Of a DNA stretch of 28,947 nucleotides, positions 4,607 to 19,204 are shown piece after piece (positions within the stretch are counted from its first letter, which is position 1; each line of letters begins with the position of its first letter). The notes under the pieces were generated by a model that saw only the letters and a program-made list of their open reading frames with translations, had not been told where the DNA came from and made no database searches. The position numbers and the translations under genes were made by a program. Origin of the DNA: a virus; IMG/VR virus record IMGVR_UViG_3300005295_000051, positions 1-28,947 of that record; one strand, written 5' to 3'.

Positions 4607-4908
4607 AGCGCGTCCCGCGCCTCGGGCGCGCGGAGCCGGTAGCGGTAGAGGCCCCGCCCGTCGGTGACGCGCTGGCGATCCACGCACCATGCGCCGAACC
4701 GATCCTTGCGGAGATCGCGAAGCCGCGCGCTCACGCTCGCCTCGGGCGCTCCGGTCTTGTCCGCGATCTGGTGGAGCGTGTGCCACGCGCCATCCGCCAT
4801 CACCGTGCGGACGGCGAGCAGTTGACTGGCGAGCCGCTCGCGATCCTGTCCCGGGTCGTAGGTGTCGCCGTCGAAGAACAGGTTGCCCTGGCGCGGTGGA
4901 CCCATCAT
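4603..4908 (-). CDS. Winged helix-turn-helix protein
   Basis: 101 residues. The gene starts MM; the first ATG (4908) overlaps the Mom-like gene's TGA as ATGA (4905-4908). Residues 31-72 form a winged-helix pattern: VMADGAWHTLHQIADKTGAP, then EASVSARLRDLRKDRFGAW, with the recognition helix around ASVSARLRDLRK and a wing around DRQRVTDGRGLYRYRL. This is the arrangement of small phage proteins that control replication or transcription by DNA binding. It is one of two candidates, with the ribbon-helix-helix protein at 12229-12459, for recognising the repeated palindromic operators. The N-terminal QGNLFFDGDTYDPGQD segment is acidic and probably flexible. Confidence 0.75.
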   Translation of the reverse strand: MMGPPRQGNLFFDGDTYDPGQDRERLASQLLAVRTVMADGAWHTLHQIADKTGAPEASVSARLRDLRKDRFGAWCVDRQRVTDGRGLYRYRLRAPEARDAL

Positions 4909-5624
4909 CGCCTCCGTTTCGGATAGGGCTGAAACCGCGAGGCCAGCCGCGCGCGATGGTGCCGCGCGGACGGGCCGCGAAACGCGAAGTAGCGAGCGCG
5001 CGAGGGGACGTAGGACGCCGTGACGGGCGTGTCGAGGCGGGCGAGCTTCGTGATGGTGTCCGCGTCCTCGCGGCGCAGTTGGCGCTCGGAGACGGTCGTG
5101 CCATTCGTGGTGCGGGCCTCGTAGCGCCCGTGGCCCATGACCCCGACGTAGTCGAAGCCGCACGCCTGATAGATCGTGCCGATCTCCCCAGCAGCGGGAT
5201 CGACGAGCGCCGTGATGACTTCGACCGTGGGGGGCAGGAGGCGCATCGCGCGGCGGATCAGCCGGGACGCGGAGCCGGTCGGCGTCCAGTGCGCGCACGC
5301 GCCGCGTGCGAGGAGCCACAAGCGTCCGCCGCCCCACCCGTAGCGGTCCCACACGCCCAGGTTCTCCGCCGGGTCAGGCCCGAACACGATCGCGCCGCCC
5401 AGCACGCCGGAAAAGAATACCCCGTAGTGCGCGTGCGTGACCGTCGGCATCGTGCCCAGCCACTCGTAGGGCAGGATCATCGACGCCGCCGTCGCGCGGT
5501 CGATCGCGCGCACCTGACTCCGCTTCAGCGTGAGGTCGCAGTGCGTCCAGTACGCGCCGAACAGGTCGTGATCGAGGGCGAGGCGCGCGCGGGCGTCGCG
5601 GATCTGGCGCTGCCACGCGATCAC
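4905..5624 (-). CDS. mom: Mom-like DNA adenine modification enzyme
   Basis: 239 residues from GTG at 5624, which overlaps the resolvase stop as GTGA. The pattern is that of phage Mu Mom, a GNAT-fold enzyme that converts adenine in phage DNA to a carbamoylmethyl derivative and so blocks host restriction: HYGVFFSGVLGGAIVFGP (H66-Y67 at the start of the core), then LLARGACAHWTPTGSASRLI, then VDPAAGEIGTIYQACGFDYVG with D142 and Y152. A His-Tyr pair, an Asp and a Tyr 10 residues later are what I recall as the essential residues of Mu Mom. The basic tail (PSRARYFAFRGPSARHHRAR and PKRRR) fits DNA contact. Coupling to RuvC-like and winged-helix genes puts it in the early DNA-handling operon, unlike Mu where mom is late. 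The exact modification is not provable from sequence. Confidence 0.8.
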   Translation of the reverse strand: MIAWQRQIRDARARLALDHDLFGAYWTHCDLTLKRSQVRAIDRATAASMILPYEWLGTMPTVTHAHYGVFFSGVLGGAIVFGPDPAENLGVWDRYGWGGGRLWLLARGACAHWTPTGSASRLIRRAMRLLPPTVEVITALVDPAAGEIGTIYQACGFDYVGVMGHGRYEARTTNGTTVSERQLRREDADTITKLARLDTPVTASYVPSRARYFAFRGPSARHHRARLASRFQPYPKRRR

Positions 5625-6139
5625 TTCGGTCCCAACACCTCGGCCTCGACGTAGTGCAAGAGGCCGATCGCGTCGAGTTCGTCGTCGGTGAGCGCGGAGG
5701 CATGCGAGCCCGCAGGGAGCCACCCGCGCCGCTGCACGGCCTCCGCGATGGCGTCCTTGCTGGCGCGCCCGTTGCCCGATACCCACTTCTTCAGCGTGGC
5801 GGAGTGGACGGAGACGTGGTTGAACTGCCACCGCGCGCAGTGCTCCTGCACCCGGGTCGTGAAGCCGTTCGCGATCTCCGTCGCCGCGCCCCCGCGATGA
5901 TGCGCGGCCTCGTAGGCGATGAGCGCGAGCCGTCCGTCAGCGGCGACATCGAGGAGCGGGGTTGCTATTTCGCGGAGCCAGCGATTGAACGCGACGTAGC
6001 GCATTCCAGGCGACTCCCCGCGCTTGACCGCGAACTCCTGCACGCCGCTTTCGAGCCGCCCCTCGACGCGGAGCGCCCAGCCCGTGAAGGTGCCGAGATC
6101 GAGCGCGAGGACGGCGTAGAGATCAGGCGGGTGCCTCAC
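5621..6139 (-). CDS. RuvC-like Holliday junction resolvase
   Basis: 172 residues; ATG at 6139 overlaps the upstream stop as ATGA. RNase H-like fold: first strand ALDLGTFTGWAL with D14, second acidic residue E77 in LALIAYEAAHHRGGAA, lysine pair KKWVSGNGRASKDA (118-130), and the last acidic cluster DDELDAIGLL (152-161). This is the layout of RuvC-type crossover junction endonucleases, close to the family's usual 150-190 residues. It probably cuts branched DNA made by recombination-dependent replication before packaging. Since the phage terminase here lacks its own RNase H-like nuclease, this is the only protein in the window with that fold, which is worth noting. Confidence 0.85.
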   Translation of the reverse strand: MRHPPDLYAVLALDLGTFTGWALRVEGRLESGVQEFAVKRGESPGMRYVAFNRWLREIATPLLDVAADGRLALIAYEAAHHRGGAATEIANGFTTRVQEHCARWQFNHVSVHSATLKKWVSGNGRASKDAIAEAVQRRGWLPAGSHASALTDDELDAIGLLHYVEAEVLGPK

Positions 6140-12505: not shown

Positions 12506-12533
12506 AGTATACCTGGGATATCGCGCCTGTCAA
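12506..12533 (-). promoter_or_regulatory. Early leftward promoter with operator
   Basis: Minus strand: TTGACA (12533-12528), 16-base spacer, TATACT (12511-12506), the best -10 in the window. The spacer holds the imperfect palindrome GATATC-N3-GGTATA (plus-strand 12507-12523). It should drive the RHH-nuclease-recombinase-primase operon. The leader to the ATG at 12459 is about 40 bases. A rightward promoter starts 45 bases away, making a divergent control region. Confidence 0.75.
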
Positions 12534-12578: not shown

Positions 12579-12606
12579 TTGACATGTGGGATACCGGGTG
12601 TATCAT
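12579..12606 (+). promoter_or_regulatory. Rightward promoter with operator
   Basis: TTGACA (12579-12584), 16-base spacer, TATCAT (12601-12606). The palindrome GGATACC-N3-TGTATCA covers 12589-12605. Upstream GTTTTTCCTGC is shared with promoters at 4210 and 17090. The predicted transcription start coincides with ATG 12613. Confidence 0.75.
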
Positions 12607-12651: not shown

Positions 12652-13065
12652 ATGAAGCGACTCAGCCAGCCCGTCCCGCCCAACGGGGCGATCGTTCACA
12701 CCCGCACCGGGGGCACCCGGTTCGCGTGGCTCATCACCACGGGCGTCAACGTGGACCGCGCCGCCCTCGCGGGCGCGATCGGGGCCGAACGGGACTTTGC
12801 CTCGGAGTGCCTGTGGGCCGCGCGCGCCCTCATGGCCCACCGTCTGCCGACCGCCACCGTGTCGCTGAAGCAGACCCAGTCCCTGGTGAAGGCCGCACGG
12901 CGGGCCCTGCTCAAGGGCGCGGCGTCCTTCAGGATCACCACCCCCAAGTCGAAGGCGCTCCTCCTGGTGGACGCCATCGTCCTCAACGCCATCCTGACCG
13001 TGGCCGCGAAGCGCCGCCGCCTCGCCGCCTCGCCCCCCGCCGCCGGGGGGTTGACAGCCTCCTGA
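12652..13065 (+). CDS. Hypothetical basic protein
   Basis: 137 residues from ATG at 12652, which has AAGGAGG about 7 bases upstream. An in-frame ATG at 12613 would add 13 residues (MDAITTPTQGGPT) and coincides with the predicted transcription start. The protein begins MKRLSQPVPPNGAIVHTRTG and is mixed, with a helical middle (RDFASECLWAARALMAHR), Lys/Arg-rich stretches and a hydrophobic helix (ALLLVDAIVLNAILTVAA) near the end. Not recognised. Its 3' end carries the -35 box of the next promoter. Rightward counterpart of the RHH gene across the divergent region, so probably expressed early. Confidence 0.65.
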   Translation: MKRLSQPVPPNGAIVHTRTGGTRFAWLITTGVNVDRAALAGAIGAERDFASECLWAARALMAHRLPTATVSLKQTQSLVKAARRALLKGAASFRITTPKSKALLLVDAIVLNAILTVAAKRRRLAASPPAAGGLTAS

Positions 13066-13080
13066 TATCAGTGGTATCAT
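13051..13080 (+). promoter_or_regulatory. Promoter with operator before amidoligase
   Basis: TTGACA (13051-13056), 18-base spacer, TATCAT (13075-13080). The palindrome TGATATC-N3-GGTATCA lies at 13063-13079, and its first TGA is also the stop codon of the upstream gene. The leader carries a C/A-rich run (accccaaccccaacc) and GGAGG before the ATG at 13130. Confidence 0.72.
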
Positions 13081-13129
13081 CCTAGACATGGACAGGACGA
13101 ACCCCAACCCCAACCGGAGGACGCGGACC

Positions 13130-13765
13130 ATGGAATTCAACCGGATCGCGAAGGTGGGCATCGAACTTGAGGGCGGCTGGACCCAGCGGCCCTTCGGGCG
13201 CGTGGACGCCGCCCGCAACATCGAGTGGCACGGCGACGGCAGCGTGCGCGTCGCCGCCGCCTACGTGGGCGAGGCCGTCGTGCAGACCCCGCTCGACAAC
13301 TGGCAGGCGGTGTCCGACTGGATCGTGACCGCCTACCCCCAGGTGGTCAACGCGACGTGCGGCCTCCACGTCCACGTGTCCTTCAAGCGGATCGCGGACT
13401 ACGCGCTCCTCATGGACGACAAGTTCTACGCGTTCTTCATCGAGCGCCTGAAGGCGTGGGGCACGCGGACCAACATCAAGGCGCACCACTCGTTCTGGCA
13501 CCGCCTGGACGGCGGGAACCCGTACTGCCGGAAGACGTTCGTGCCCGACGCCCAGGTCGCGACGCGGATCAAGACCTCGGCCCGGTACGCGCACCTGAAC
13601 TTCTGCCTTTCGCTCCACACCACGATCGAGGCGCGCGTCCTGCCGATGTTCAAGCACCCCCACGTCGCGGTGAGCGCGGTGCAGGAACTGCTCTCGATCT
13701 ACGAGGACTACCTCTCCCAGAACCGGAAGCTGGACATCGAGGAAGTGGTCGAGGGCCTCGCCTAA
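13130..13765 (+). CDS. Amidoligase-family enzyme (glutamine synthetase-like fold)
   Basis: 211 residues from ATG at 13130 (GGAGG nine bases upstream); an in-frame ATG at 13088 would add 14 residues. Motifs in order: KVGIELEGGW (8-17) with two acidic residues, WHGDGSVR (33-40) with the DGS typical of the family, GEAVVQTPL (47-55), CGLHVHVSF (77-85), SARYAHLNF (150-158) and TIEARVLPMF (165-174). These are the hallmarks of the phage/bacterial amidoligases described as glutamine synthetase-like ATP-dependent ligases that join an amine to a carboxylate. The next gene, in a 1-base TAATG overlap, is a class II glutamine amidotransferase. The substrate is not known; ideas include a peptide tag, cell-wall peptide or a small metabolite. 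Confidence 0.85.
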   Translation: MEFNRIAKVGIELEGGWTQRPFGRVDAARNIEWHGDGSVRVAAAYVGEAVVQTPLDNWQAVSDWIVTAYPQVVNATCGLHVHVSFKRIADYALLMDDKFYAFFIERLKAWGTRTNIKAHHSFWHRLDGGNPYCRKTFVPDAQVATRIKTSARYAHLNFCLSLHTTIEARVLPMFKHPHVAVSAVQELLSIYEDYLSQNRKLDIEEVVEGLA

Positions 13766-14585: not shown

Positions 14586-14817
14586 GGACACGATCAGCCG
14601 GAAGGTCCGCGCGTACCTCGACGCGAAGGCGGAGCATGACGCCTACGCGAAGCAGCGAGAGAAGTACCCGGAGTTGCGCCAGCGCCCCGGGCATGCCGCG
14701 CAGTACACCGCCGCCCGCGCCACGTGGCTGGTGTTGATGGGCCGCATGACGGGCGGAGAACTTGGACAGGCCGCGCGCATCGAACGCGCGGCCCAGAAGG
14801 AGACGACCAATGCCTGA
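14584..14817 (+). CDS. Small helical hypothetical protein
   Basis: 77 residues from ATG at 14584. There is no Shine-Dalgarno sequence; the ATG sits inside the operator site, and the first 15 bases resemble the start-site sequence at 12613 (ATGGACRCGATCASC). If transcription starts here the mRNA is leaderless. The protein is charged and helical throughout (RKVRAYLDAKAEHDAYAKQR, then QYTAARATWLVLMGRM, then RIERAAQKETTNA). Not recognised. Its end overlaps the DUF932 gene by 8 bases. Confidence 0.6.
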   Translation: MDTISRKVRAYLDAKAEHDAYAKQREKYPELRQRPGHAAQYTAARATWLVLMGRMTGGELGQAARIERAAQKETTNA

Positions 14818-15547
14818 CGCGACCGCCACGCTCCTCAGCAAGAAGTCCACGCGCGTCACCCGCCAGCAGCTACGCGGGATCGAGACGCCGCTCTCCACCC
14901 CCACTCATCGCCCCGTGCCGCACGCGGACTTGGTGGACATGCTGGAGGACCGGCTCAACGCGAGCGGCCTCTTCATCTTCCGCGAGCAGTACGCCGTGCA
15001 GTCGCACGGGCAGAAGCTCTTCGGAACGCTCGATCTCCACAACGGCGGCGCGTCGGCGGGCGAGGGCACCACGCTCGCGCTCGGCTTCCGCCACGGGAAC
15101 GACAAGTCGATGGCGTTGAAGTGCGTGGGCGGGTGCCGCGTGACCATCTGCGACAACATGGCGATGATGGGCGACACCACGGTCTTCCGGCTCATGCACA
15201 AGCACGGCGTGATGGCAGGCCTCCGCGAACGGCTGTCGCGCTACTTCGGGGAGTACGACAAGCAGGTTGCGTCCATCAAGGATCGCATCGAGGCGTGGCG
15301 CTGGGCGGGATTGACCGACATCGAGGCGAAGGCGACGGTCTACGACGCGGTGACGACGGGCGTGATCCCGTCCCGCCTCCTGGGCGACATCGACACGGCG
15401 TACTTCCGCGCGACCGACCTCGGCTACACCGACTGCGAGCCCCGCTCCAAGTGGGGTCTTCACAACGCCTTCACCCGGAGCTTCAAGTCCTTGAACCCCG
15501 CGCCCGAATGGGCGGCGCAGACCGGCCTGACGCGGCTCCTCGGCTAA
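14810..15547 (+). CDS. DUF932 family protein
   Basis: 245 residues; ATG at 14810 preceded by AAGGAG. Pattern of the DUF932 (phage/plasmid-like protein) family: PVPHADLVDMLEDRLNASGL near residue 35, then YAVQSHGQKLFGTLDL, LALGFRHGNDKSMALKCVGG, the ICDNMAM motif, a helical region, and the C-terminal DCEPRSKWGLHNAFTRSFK. These proteins are carried by plasmids and phages and are thought to act near DNA, but their activity is unknown. Length is at the short end of the family. Overlaps the preceding gene, so likely co-translated. Confidence 0.85.
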   Translation: MPDATATLLSKKSTRVTRQQLRGIETPLSTPTHRPVPHADLVDMLEDRLNASGLFIFREQYAVQSHGQKLFGTLDLHNGGASAGEGTTLALGFRHGNDKSMALKCVGGCRVTICDNMAMMGDTTVFRLMHKHGVMAGLRERLSRYFGEYDKQVASIKDRIEAWRWAGLTDIEAKATVYDAVTTGVIPSRLLGDIDTAYFRATDLGYTDCEPRSKWGLHNAFTRSFKSLNPAPEWAAQTGLTRLLG

Positions 15548-15558
15548 CATTCCGTGAC

Positions 15559-15584
15559 GGGGCGGGGGCCCGCGCTCCCGCCCC
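15559..15584 (+). terminator. GC hairpin after DUF932 gene
   Basis: Perfect 8-base stem GGGGCGGG (15559-15566) and CCCGCCCC (15577-15584), 11 bases after the stop, followed by CTGGAGG. There is no T-run, so it is an atypical terminator, attenuator or mRNA-stabilising stem. One of three similar hairpins on this strand. Confidence 0.5.
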
Positions 15585-15662
15585 TGGAGGGTCCAGCACC
15601 CCTGGCGGAGCCCAGGGCGTCGGTCATGCGCGTGCAGTGAACCGATCACCAAGAGGTCTGGC

Positions 15663-16328
15663 ATGAAGATCGTCGTCACACTCCTCACCATCCTGGCGCT
15701 CGCCTGCGCCCCGGGCATCGCGTCCGCCGCCGCGATCGTGTTCGACACGGTCCCGAATGGCGCGGGCGGGACCGTGACCTACGACGGCGTGGGCGGGCCC
15801 GCGATCGGGACCGGCATCGCTTTCGTGGACATCGTGGGCGTCGGGACGCCCCAGAACAGCGGGCTGCTCCTGTCCTGCGTGGACTGCCTCCTCAACTTCG
15901 TGACCGGCCCCAACATCTCGGAGGGGCCGACGTACCAGTGGGCGGGCGGCGGAAGCTTCTCGATCACGGGGGACGTGCCGTTCCTCGGCCTCGACGATGT
16001 CGTCCTGCTCTCGGGGACGTTCATCGGTACGCCGAATACCCCGGGCCTCGCGGCGGGTGACCTCGGCGGGTTCTTCATCGGGGCGGGGTCCGACACCAAG
16101 AATGACTTCCTGACCGGCTTCTACGGACTGCCGGGAACCGGCTGGACGTTCGCGAACACGGAGATCATGCTCGGCACCCTCACCGTCGATCCCGTGACCG
16201 GCGCGTTCACGGGCATCCCGAACCAAGCCGACATCGTCAACGTCAACCCGGTGCCGGAGCCCGCCACGCTCCTGCTGCTCGGCAGCGGGCTCGTCGGCGC
16301 GGCGTGGTTCCGGCGGCGGACCCGCTAA
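15663..16328 (+). CDS. PEP-CTERM sorted secreted protein
   Basis: 221 residues; ATG at 15663 with AGAGGT nine bases upstream. A signal peptide (MKIVVTLLTILALACAPGIA, cleavage near SAA at 21-23) leads into a strand-rich, Gly/Thr-rich domain with the style of PEP-CTERM proteins (TVTYDGVGGPAIGTGIAF, LNFVTGPN, GGGSFSITGDVP, VVLLSGTFIG). The C-terminus is a full PEP-CTERM signal: VPEPATLLLLG (197-207), a hydrophobic span and RRRTR. In host bacteria an exosortase (EpsH/XrtA type) recognises this tail, so the product should be delivered to the surface or biofilm matrix. Such a gene in a phage is unusual. It is flanked by two GC hairpins like a moron acquired from a host. Two Cys (SCVDC) could form a disulfide. 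Confidence 0.9.
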   Translation: MKIVVTLLTILALACAPGIASAAAIVFDTVPNGAGGTVTYDGVGGPAIGTGIAFVDIVGVGTPQNSGLLLSCVDCLLNFVTGPNISEGPTYQWAGGGSFSITGDVPFLGLDDVVLLSGTFIGTPNTPGLAAGDLGGFFIGAGSDTKNDFLTGFYGLPGTGWTFANTEIMLGTLTVDPVTGAFTGIPNQADIVNVNPVPEPATLLLLGSGLVGAAWFRRRTR

Positions 16329-16338
16329 CTCCGAGACC

Positions 16339-16366
16339 GGGCGGGGGGCCGCGTGGCCCCTCGCCC
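16339..16366 (+). terminator. GC hairpin after PEP-CTERM gene
   Basis: Arms 16339-16350 and 16355-16366 pair over 12 bases with one G-T, loop GCGT, starting 11 bases after the stop codon. It is followed by CTGGAGG, the ribosome binding site of the next gene. No T-run. Confidence 0.5.
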
Positions 16367-16378
16367 CTGGAGGACTCA

Positions 16379-16654
16379 ATGGCTTGCGACGCCTGTGGCA
16401 AGGAAGAGCGCGAGATCGACGCGGCCCTCGCGGAGGCGGAGGCGGAACTTGCCGCCCGCACCCGCTACGCGCCGCTCACGTGGACCCAGCGGGACGACGG
16501 CGCGTGGCAGAGCGACCGCGAGGGCTACACCACCCTCGCCATGACGAGCGGCGAGGTCATGCTCCACCACGACACCTTCAGCGCCGTCTGCGCGGATCGC
16601 TACGAGGCGCAGGCGTTGGCCGACTTCGATTGCTGGATGCGTGGCCCCCGATGA
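16379..16654 (+). CDS. Small hypothetical protein with N-terminal CxxC
   Basis: 91 residues; ATG at 16379, GGAGG six bases upstream. Begins MACDACGKEEREIDAALAEA, a C-x2-C followed by an acidic helix, then YAPLTWTQRDDGAWQSDREG, a likely small beta sheet, and a C-terminal part with two further Cys. A single zinc site is possible. Its TGA overlaps the next ATG as ATGA (16651-16654). Not recognised. Confidence 0.7.
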   Translation: MACDACGKEEREIDAALAEAEAELAARTRYAPLTWTQRDDGAWQSDREGYTTLAMTSGEVMLHHDTFSAVCADRYEAQALADFDCWMRGPR

Positions 16655-17089: not shown

Positions 17090-17118
17090 TTGACAGCCAG
17101 TGATGTCACTGATACCAT
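17090..17118 (+). promoter_or_regulatory. Promoter with operator before DUF6011 gene
   Basis: TTGACA (17090-17095), 17-base spacer, TACCAT (17113-17118). The imperfect palindrome TGATGTC-N3-GATACCA lies at 17101-17117. Upstream ATTTTTCCCGC is shared with two other promoters; here it also forms the terminator T-run. A GTG at 17127 lies near the predicted start. Confidence 0.72.
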
Positions 17119-17167
17119 CCTCTCCGTGAACAGCAACGCACCCAAAACCCACACGAAGGAGATCCCG

Positions 17168-17890
17168 ATGACCACCGACTTTCGCGGCCAACTTACCTCC
17201 TCCTCCACCGCCCTCCAGTACCTCCTCGCGGGCGACGCGCGGATCACGATCGCGTCCGACGCGGGCCAGCGGTTCACCTTCAAGGTGAGCGCGCCCAAGA
17301 TGGACACGCCCAAGGGCGGGCGCGTGACGGACTTCGCCAGCCCCATGCGGTTCGTCGCGCTCGCGGACAACGAGCGGAGCTTCAACTACCTCGGCTTCAT
17401 CCGCGACGGCGGAGAGTACGTCCACGGCTTCCGCAAGAGCCGCGTGAGCCAGGACGCGCCCAGCGTGCGGACGTTCGCGATGGTCTGGAACGCACTCCGG
17501 GGCGGCATGATCCCGATCGGCTTCTCGATCTGGCATGAGGGCGCGTGCGCGCGTTGCGGGCGGACCCTCACGGTCCCGGCCTCGATCGCCTCGGGCTTCG
17601 GCCCCGACTGCGCGGCACTCCTCGGCATCGCGCAGCCAGAGCCGGTCGCGGCCCCAGTCGAGGAGCCCGTGGCGATCGCGGGCGGCTCCGACCTCAACCC
17701 GATTCTCCCGTGCGTCATCGATCCCACCCACTCCACCCACGTCGGCCCCTGCGCCGCGTGGCAGGGCCCCAGCGCCCCCGTCCCGGCCTCCGAGACGCTC
17801 GCGCTGATCCGGCACCTCCTGGCCCTCCAGGCTCGCGGCGAGATCACCGACGCGGAGGCGCTCGTCGCCATCCGGGGGTACGTGGCCTAA
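17168..17890 (+). CDS. DUF6011-type phage protein
   Basis: 240 residues from ATG at 17168 with AAGGAG about 7 bases upstream; an in-frame GTG at 17126-17128 could add 14 residues. N-terminal two thirds are strand-rich (ITIASDAGQRFTFKVSAPK, MRFVALADNERSFNYLGFI). A zinc-type motif follows, ACARCGRTLTVPASIASGFG with PDC (CxxCGRxLTxPxSIxxGxGPxC), which is the DUF6011 signature. Then a Pro/Ala linker and a C-terminal helical part (LALIRHLLALQARGEITDAE) like a short helix-hairpin seen in phage proteins. Function unknown; the family is common in phages of high-GC bacteria. Confidence 0.8.
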   Translation: MTTDFRGQLTSSSTALQYLLAGDARITIASDAGQRFTFKVSAPKMDTPKGGRVTDFASPMRFVALADNERSFNYLGFIRDGGEYVHGFRKSRVSQDAPSVRTFAMVWNALRGGMIPIGFSIWHEGACARCGRTLTVPASIASGFGPDCAALLGIAQPEPVAAPVEEPVAIAGGSDLNPILPCVIDPTHSTHVGPCAAWQGPSAPVPASETLALIRHLLALQARGEITDAEALVAIRGYVA

Positions 17891-17940: not shown

Positions 17941-18144
17941 ATGGAGAGCCTCGCGGGCGTCCTCGCCGCGCTCTGGCGCTGGAGCGAGGCGCACCTTCCC
18001 GATCTGTCCGATTGGCTCGACACCCTGCTTGGTGGACTGCTGTACGTCGGGTGGGTGGGGCTGGTGGCGCTCGCGATCTGGATCGTGCCGCTGCCCTACT
18101 CGCTCGTCTTCATCTTCCTCCTGCCCATCCGGTGGGGCGGCTGA
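17941..18144 (+). CDS. Small membrane protein
   Basis: 67 residues; ATG at 17941, GGAGG eight bases upstream. After an amphipathic start (MESLAGVLAALWRWSEAHLP) there are one or two hydrophobic spans (LLGGLLYVGWVGLVALAIWI and VPLPYSLVFIFLLPIRW). It is followed in a 1-base TGATG overlap by a 30-residue membrane peptide. The pair resembles holin-like or membrane-associated phage genes, but no lysin lies beside them. Not recognised. Confidence 0.65.
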   Translation: MESLAGVLAALWRWSEAHLPDLSDWLDTLLGGLLYVGWVGLVALAIWIVPLPYSLVFIFLLPIRWGG

Positions 18145-18236
18145 TGATGGACGAGGTCGTCTGGAGCACCGTCGAGTGGCTGTTCACCGGCCTGTGCGCG
18201 GCGGCGTGCATCTGGGCCATTGGCCGCAACCGTTGA
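18144..18236 (+). CDS. 30-residue membrane peptide
   Basis: ATG at 18144 shares a base with the previous TGA; a second ATG follows directly. MMDEVVWSTVEWLFTGLCAA continues into ACIWAIGRNR: one hydrophobic helix with acidic N-terminus and basic C-terminus, so probably N-out. Coupling to the preceding membrane gene and the immediate ribosome binding site of the next gene (GGGGAGG, 18242-18248) support it. Confidence 0.5.
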   Translation: MMDEVVWSTVEWLFTGLCAAACIWAIGRNR

Positions 18237-18253
18237 CCGTAGGGGAGGCACCG

Positions 18254-19204
18254 ATGTCAGGGACCGCCGTAGGCAACGCCGTCCGCCGTCGGAAACTCGC
18301 GGAGAGCGACGCCGTCCGTCTGGGCCATCTGGCCCGCAAGCACCGGAAGCCCGTCGTCCTCGACGCGCTGAAGTCGTACCGCGCCACGATCCCACCCGCG
18401 CGATTCCGGCAGTTGAACGTCTGCGAGATCTACCAGCGCATCCGCATCGCGGCGTGGGTGAACGATCTGATTCACACGATCAAGGCAGGCGGCTCGATCC
18501 CCGATCCGATCGCCATTGCGGAGCGCCCCGACGGGACGCTCTGGATCGTGGACGGCCAGCAGCGATACTGGGCCGCTGACGAGTGCAAGATCAGCCTGGA
18601 GGCCACGATCTACAAAGTCCCCGATCCGCACACCGACGACTACGCGACCGAGAAAAAGCTCTTCTATGTGCTGAACCGGACGCGCGCGCTCTCCTCGATC
18701 AAGCGCGTCGGCGCGTGGGCGGGGCACGTCACCGGCCTCCTCCGCCGCGTGATGGGCGCGGGCGCGTACCCGCACCCGATCGACCTGAACAACCCCGGGG
18801 CCTCGTCCTACTCCGCGCCCAACTTGGTGCGGGGCGTCGTCGCGCTCCTCTCGCCTGCGGCGTCGTCGGCGTTCCACGGCATCGACGCGGTCCTGGGACA
18901 CTCGGAGACGCTCCTCCCCTCCAAGGACGCCCAGCAGAAGGCGCAGGCGTTCCTCCTGCTCGTCCCGCGCGTCTACCCCCACCCGTCGGCGGCACGGATG
19001 CTGCCGGTCATCGCGCTCGCGCGCGTCGCGGCGGAGCGATGGCGCGAGAAGGTCACCGACGTGGACGCGACCACGATCAACAACCTGCGCCGCATGAACG
19101 TCGCCAGCTACGCGCCCACGTGGTCGTCGAAGTTCCTGCCGCTCGTCGAATCCGCGTATGCGTCGCGCTGGCCGGAATCGTCCAAGAAGAAGGGCGGGAA
19201 GTAA
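18254..19204 (+). CDS. ParB/Srx-like domain protein
   Basis: 316 residues; ATG at 18254, GGGGAGG about 5 bases upstream. The segment IPDPIAIAERPDGTLWIVDG then QQRYWAADE (82-110) is the ParB N-terminal/sulfiredoxin-like signature (D-G-Q-x-R), as in DGQHR proteins of phages and mobile elements. The flanks are helical, with a basic N-terminus (VRRRKLAESDAVR) and C-terminus (SSKKKGGK). No ParB helix-turn-helix is obvious, so partitioning is unlikely. DNA nicking, CTP-dependent binding or a modification role are options known for the superfamily. Confidence 0.78.
   Translation: MSGTAVGNAVRRRKLAESDAVRLGHLARKHRKPVVLDALKSYRATIPPARFRQLNVCEIYQRIRIAAWVNDLIHTIKAGGSIPDPIAIAERPDGTLWIVDGQQRYWAADECKISLEATIYKVPDPHTDDYATEKKLFYVLNRTRALSSIKRVGAWAGHVTGLLRRVMGAGAYPHPIDLNNPGASSYSAPNLVRGVVALLSPAASSAFHGIDAVLGHSETLLPSKDAQQKAQAFLLLVPRVYPHPSAARMLPVIALARVAAERWREKVTDVDATTINNLRRMNVASYAPTWSSKFLPLVESAYASRWPESSKKKGGK

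Follow-up and report, generated by a model that had tools for sequence, protein, structure and literature searches.

The window, that is, the whole stretch of DNA analysed, is a 28,947-base virus contig that encodes a primase/helicase, a RuvC-like resolvase, a Mom-like DNA modification protein (4905-5831, minus strand; phrog_1384, 8.6e-17) and a virion structural protein. A gene for a PEP-CTERM protein sits in it between a DUF932 and a DUF6011 gene, with a GC hairpin on either side (Table 1). Homologues in the same order across nearly the whole window were found in a second virus contig of 46,353 bases (G001; IMGVR_UViG_3300036397_000001), the shared gene order wrapping round the ends of the latter, and the virion proteins of the two are 57% identical. 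G001 also encodes a weakly matched terminase. The carrier backbone is like that of SU10-type phages in the SU10-type major capsid (PF17236, 6e-37) and SU10-type portal (PF23899, 7.3e-20) of G001, and unlike it in that the G001 capsid is 25-37% identical to those of the isolates in the phage collection and that the window fragment does not include these two genes. The first-pass annotation would have fallen if the segment were bacterial chromosome; since the window carries phage genes and is collinear with G001, its phage origin is upheld. Among the other genes of this backbone, the G001 homologue of window 13088-13765 (plus strand) has a weak amidoligase match (PF12224, below the cut-off), and the product of window 18029-19204 (plus strand) has weak ParB-like and DpdB-like matches.

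Table 1. Coordinates of the PEP-CTERM locus in the window and of gene X in L123 (G001, G002 and L002 are other viral contigs).
Feature	Position	Strand	Basis
Promoter-like site, perfect TTGACA	12506-12533	-	Consensus scan
Promoter-like sites, perfect TTGACA	12579-12606, 13051-13080, 17090-17118	+	Consensus scan
DUF932 gene, upstream neighbour, common to G001 and G002	14762..15547	+	PF06067; alignment
GC hairpin, 11-bp stem, 4-nt loop, then CGCCCCTGGAGG	15559..15584	+	Folding against shuffles, z -2.5
PEP-CTERM protein gene, ATG start, 221 aa	15663..16328	+	PF07589 and TIGR02595 above cut-offs; full-length viral homologues
Predicted Sec signal peptide, residues 1-22, A-S-A/A	15663..15728	+	By inspection
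Exported domain, ~170 residues, invariant cysteines C72 and C75	15729..16247	+	Family alignment
PEP-CTERM sorting signal: VPEP, hydrophobic helix, Arg-rich end	16248..16319	+	PF07589 positions 1-24 of 24, 36.7 bits
GC hairpin, 12-bp stem, 4-nt loop, then GGAGG of next gene	16339..16366	+	Folding against shuffles, z -3.7
Small ORF after second hairpin	16379..16654	+	Read from sequence
Small ORF, WPRRVR motif, also downstream of PEP-CTERM gene in L002	16652..16861	+	54% identity over 59 aa to L002 1556-1759
DUF6011 gene, downstream neighbour, common to G001	17090..17890	+	PF19474; 66% identity to G001
Gene X	L123 18617-19888	-	Homologues in L086, L127, L141, L143, L144

The N-terminus of the protein, MKIVVTLLTILALACAPGIASA/A, is by inspection typical of Sec signal peptides and includes an A-x-A site. 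Its C-terminus, VPEPATLLLLGSGLVGAAWFRRRTR, matches PF07589 (cut-off 20.7) with 36.7 bits when the genome was searched and with 32.5 bits (8.3e-8) in hmmscan, and TIGR02595 with 26.8 bits against a cut-off of 16. The first-pass annotation, which had described a signal peptide, a PEP-CTERM domain and a full tail and had made its case depend on a PEP-CTERM profile match, is therefore confirmed in this respect. Once the tail was removed, the NCBIfam search gave no match; no PHROGs family matched the protein, the family profile retrieved chance-level SiaP matches alone from the PDB sequences (E 0.2 and worse), and the AlphaFold2 model reached a pLDDT of 35. Among several PEP-CTERM families in NCBIfam, the complete protein has its best matches to NF033554, the flocculation protein PepA (PMC9850573), which shares the PEP-CTERM tail and a similar size with the window protein. 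It differs in that the window family scores at most 41 bits against a cut-off of 80 and that the likeness is gone without the tail; identity with PepA was consequently rejected and is not claimed, the match being wholly dependent on the tail.

Relatives of the PEP-CTERM protein, assembled from a single-protein scan, a motif scan with HMM comparison and then a profile scan, were recovered over the whole length in 10 viral contigs besides the window, on at least three genome backbones. One is SU10-type (the window, G001/L063 and L086/L031/L114), another is that of L002, which has a family A DNA polymerase with a PurZ-like adenylosuccinate synthetase and whose copy is 63% identical to the window protein in the single-protein scan, and the third, with its own terminase and capsid, comprises G002/G003/G010/L016. 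By inspection, the signal peptide and the A-x-A site are present in all distinct members aligned, and the tail is retained with them, the PEP motif and the basic end being kept in every member. Among bacteria and archaea, two scans covering the genomes of 84,980 species, which need a short peptide match and which distant relatives may escape, gave no relative, nor did the plasmid records or 50,697 phage records, where a search with the tail only likewise returned nothing. Close relatives, sought in phage and host databases, were thus found in viral contigs only, and no bacterial donor of the gene came out of the genome scans and the plasmid search. PEP-CTERM as such is already known; no phage-encoded substrates were apparent in the accessible text of the mainly open papers joining PEP-CTERM or exosortase with phage, and in the open papers searched phage-encoded exosortase substrates appear to be without a report.

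VPEP-type motifs were seen in at least 119 viral contig stretches (L003-L121), most of them with full PEP-CTERM tails, and L015, L036, L042, L064, L070, L078 and L080 carry two or three such genes. A terminase profile match, weak in some cases, was obtained for at least 14 of the 44 VPEP-motif contigs tested, a lower bound given that the phrog_2 screen is insensitive and misses G001.

The position of the gene varies between collinear phages. In G001, a small ORF and repeats alone lie between the collinear DUF932 and DUF6011 genes, and the PEP-CTERM gene is found elsewhere, near the terminase and on the opposite strand relative to the shared backbone, in the order PEP-CTERM gene, a gene here called gene X, a 506-aa gene and terminase. 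The copy in L086 is also at another site than that of the window. L151, collinear with G001 at the G001 site, has a small upstream gene, a 75-aa ORF and the terminase, without the PEP-CTERM gene, gene X or the 506-aa gene; presence and absence were judged in this contig, the others from the capsid and DUF932 scans being mostly too short. The L002 and G001 proteins are 86% identical on unrelated backbones with few short matches, a comparison that covers part of the genome as L002 is 7.5 kb long, and tblastx between the window and L002, noisy at this GC, is usable for the PEP-CTERM gene and the small downstream ORF alone. The leader and signal peptide are alike among G001, L086 and G002. These results are direct evidence that the PEP-CTERM gene is an accessory ('moron-like') gene exchanged between phages, in agreement with the earlier claim of such a gene. 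Because its relatives lie at different places in partly unrelated phages, phages appear to share among themselves a protein intended for the host cell surface or slime layer.

The GC hairpins had been taken at first pass as the mark of a horizontally gained cassette, and of this proposal their existence stands, both being more stable than shuffles (Table 1). Directly 3' of each lies CGCCCCTGGAGG, which resembles a ribosome-binding site and has its only exact copies in the window at these two places. A scan of the window for perfect stems of at least 9 gave no more of them than in shuffles and missed these two hairpins, whose arms are not perfect Watson-Crick matches. Neither has a U tract, and the scan detected no terminator-like site. 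A similar hairpin follows the gene copy in L002; none was seen by inspection directly beside the copies in G001 and L086, so that no cassette can be inferred from the hairpins, and the differences in site together with the identity between the L002 and G001 proteins are better evidence for exchange. The gene has a GC of 0.69 and a GC3 of about 0.93-0.94, as in the other genes of the phage, and its synonymous codon score falls inside the range of phage genes. The comparison with its neighbours thus showed no difference and no sign of recent gain, and the idea of a gained cassette was not sustained; with so uniform a composition, the gene has either been adapting to these phages for a long time or derives from a source of like composition. 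In the consensus scan no promoter or terminator of its own was found beside the gene, the nearest plus-strand promoter-like sites being at 13051 and 17090. Around the rightward gene block, four promoter-like sites have a perfect TTGACA box, against 0.2 expected.

The PEP-CTERM gene is intact, and the sequence of its exported domain is conserved between L002 and L063, with a pN of 0.10 against a pS of 0.52 (pN/pS about 0.2), which places the domain under purifying selection. The signal peptide has a pN of 0.41, such free variation being as expected, and the tail a pN of 0.27, with its key residues kept.

Gene X follows the PEP-CTERM gene in G001 and L086, where the latter overlaps its start, and it is present in G002 at another place with 76% identity to that of G001, the two phages being otherwise different. 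It is also present in L141, L143 and L144, which have no PEP-CTERM match. Its product matched nothing in Pfam, PHROGs or NCBIfam, and was modelled as an N-terminal beta domain followed by a helical toroid-like domain (pLDDT 61.5). The Foldseek matches of this model are weak and include GH76, polysaccharide lyases, fibronectin type III (for the N-terminal part) and unrelated proteins; a link of gene X to slime degradation is a lead only.

Phage morons and lysogenic conversion genes alter the cell surface. The PEP-CTERM gene is like them in that one collinear phage has it at a site where another lacks it and in having a predicted product aimed at the host envelope, and unlike them in its neighbour-like composition, in the lack of a promoter or terminator of its own in the scan and in its proposed route, exosortase sorting; no integrase was found among the searched proteins of the window and G001. 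In the PEP-CTERM model, proteins are exported by Sec, anchored in the inner membrane, cut by exosortase and released to the surface or exopolysaccharide (PMC1569441), and one such protein keeps exopolysaccharide attached to the cells of a floc-forming bacterium (PMC9850573). The window family resembles the substrates of the PEP-CTERM/exosortase (EpsH) system (PF07589/TIGR02595; PMC1569441) in its signal peptide, its exported domain without known relatives, the PEP motif starting the C-terminal helix and the basic end. It differs from them in being phage-encoded, with no exosortase gene in the tested records, and in that one family is common to different phage backbones. As no exosortase match (PF09721) was obtained in G000-G004, G009 and G010, the host would have to supply the enzyme.

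On balance, the gene is somewhat more probably than otherwise an accessory gene of the phage whose exported product acts on the surface of the infected cell. The protein would be produced in the infected cell, directed through Sec by its predicted signal peptide and held in the inner membrane by the PEP-CTERM helix, after which a host exosortase would cut at the PEP motif and hand the domain to the cell surface or exopolysaccharide, by analogy with the published model (PMC1569441). The delivered domain may then change the infected cell's surface or slime to the advantage of the phage; our best guess within this class would be receptor masking or matrix binding that keeps competing phages out.

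Export and a good tail would also suffice for a decoy that competes for host exosortase, leaving host PEP-CTERM proteins unsorted and the matrix weakened and thereby easing progeny release or spread, and the overlap with the start of gene X in G001 and L086, with its weak fold matches to polysaccharide-active enzymes, is consistent with such a role. A decoy, however, needs no conserved exported domain, whereas it is this domain that varies least between L002 and L063, and neither the window nor G002 has gene X next to the PEP-CTERM gene, making the decoy unlikely. The location upstream of the terminase and head genes in G001, L086 and G002 would suit a virion component or a secreted matrix-binding protein freed at lysis, in which case the surface of the producing cell would not be the target; it is a distinctly unlikely explanation, as the gene in the window is set apart from the head and tail genes, on the opposite strand, and the gene is missing from that place in L151. 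Proximity to packaging genes in G001 and L086 could likewise point to a phage protein anchored by its C-terminus with a lysis or inner-membrane role (spanin-like or holin-accessory), its PEP-CTERM likeness being secondary, and unimolecular spanins generally combine a signal peptide with a C-terminal helix. Since no aligned member has a conserved lipobox cysteine, since all members keep the PEP motif and the basic end, neither of which a plain anchor needs, and since the site is not fixed near lysis genes, we consider this role quite improbable.

Outside this family, PEP-CTERM proteins have been described from bacteria and archaea, and host flanks could be present on many of the IMG/VR contigs that contain such genes, which raises the question of a bacterial gene on mis-sorted or chimaeric contigs. 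Collinearity with a phage to the left and right of the gene, the recurrence of the family in independent viral contigs, phage-like codon use and the lack of any bacterial relative in the searches make such an artefact most improbable. The reading as a surface-acting accessory protein is favoured by the complete tail, the phage context, the spread of the family, its mobility, the purifying selection and the precedent of PMC9850573; the lack of an exosortase match in those contigs of the family that were searched, the neighbour-like composition, the lack of a detected promoter or terminator of its own and a tail more variable than the domain (L002/L063) count against it.

We would put forward a broader proposal as doubtful but worth considering: phages may own a family of exosortase substrates that is exchanged among them and remodels the surface of the infected cell through the exopolysaccharide-linked sorting of the host, sometimes paired with the possibly polysaccharide-active gene X; in at least one integrase-bearing viral contig (G037), an unrelated PEP-CTERM gene is accompanied by a small exosortase of its own. 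To our knowledge most PEP-CTERM proteins have no tested function, and one that phages carry, exchange and retain under selection gives a modest opening onto the role of such proteins. A surface-acting role of the window protein, if true, would also show that phages exploit exosortase sorting to act on biofilm or slime, a route for which no report came to light in the open papers searched.

Two further contigs deserve mention. In G037 (IMGVR_UViG_3300020061_000007, at about 54.4-55.6 kb; L060 4735-5909), the unrelated PEP-CTERM gene is overlapped at its end by a gene for a 171-aa exosortase-like protein (PF09721, 1.5e-37), with the pair located between an HNH endonuclease and an integrase, an arrangement compatible with a possible phage-borne exosortase with its own substrate or, alternatively, with a host flank. 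In L002, the DNA polymerase and the PurZ-like synthetase are encoded on the one contig at 2922-7537, and this phage possibly has 2-aminoadenine DNA.
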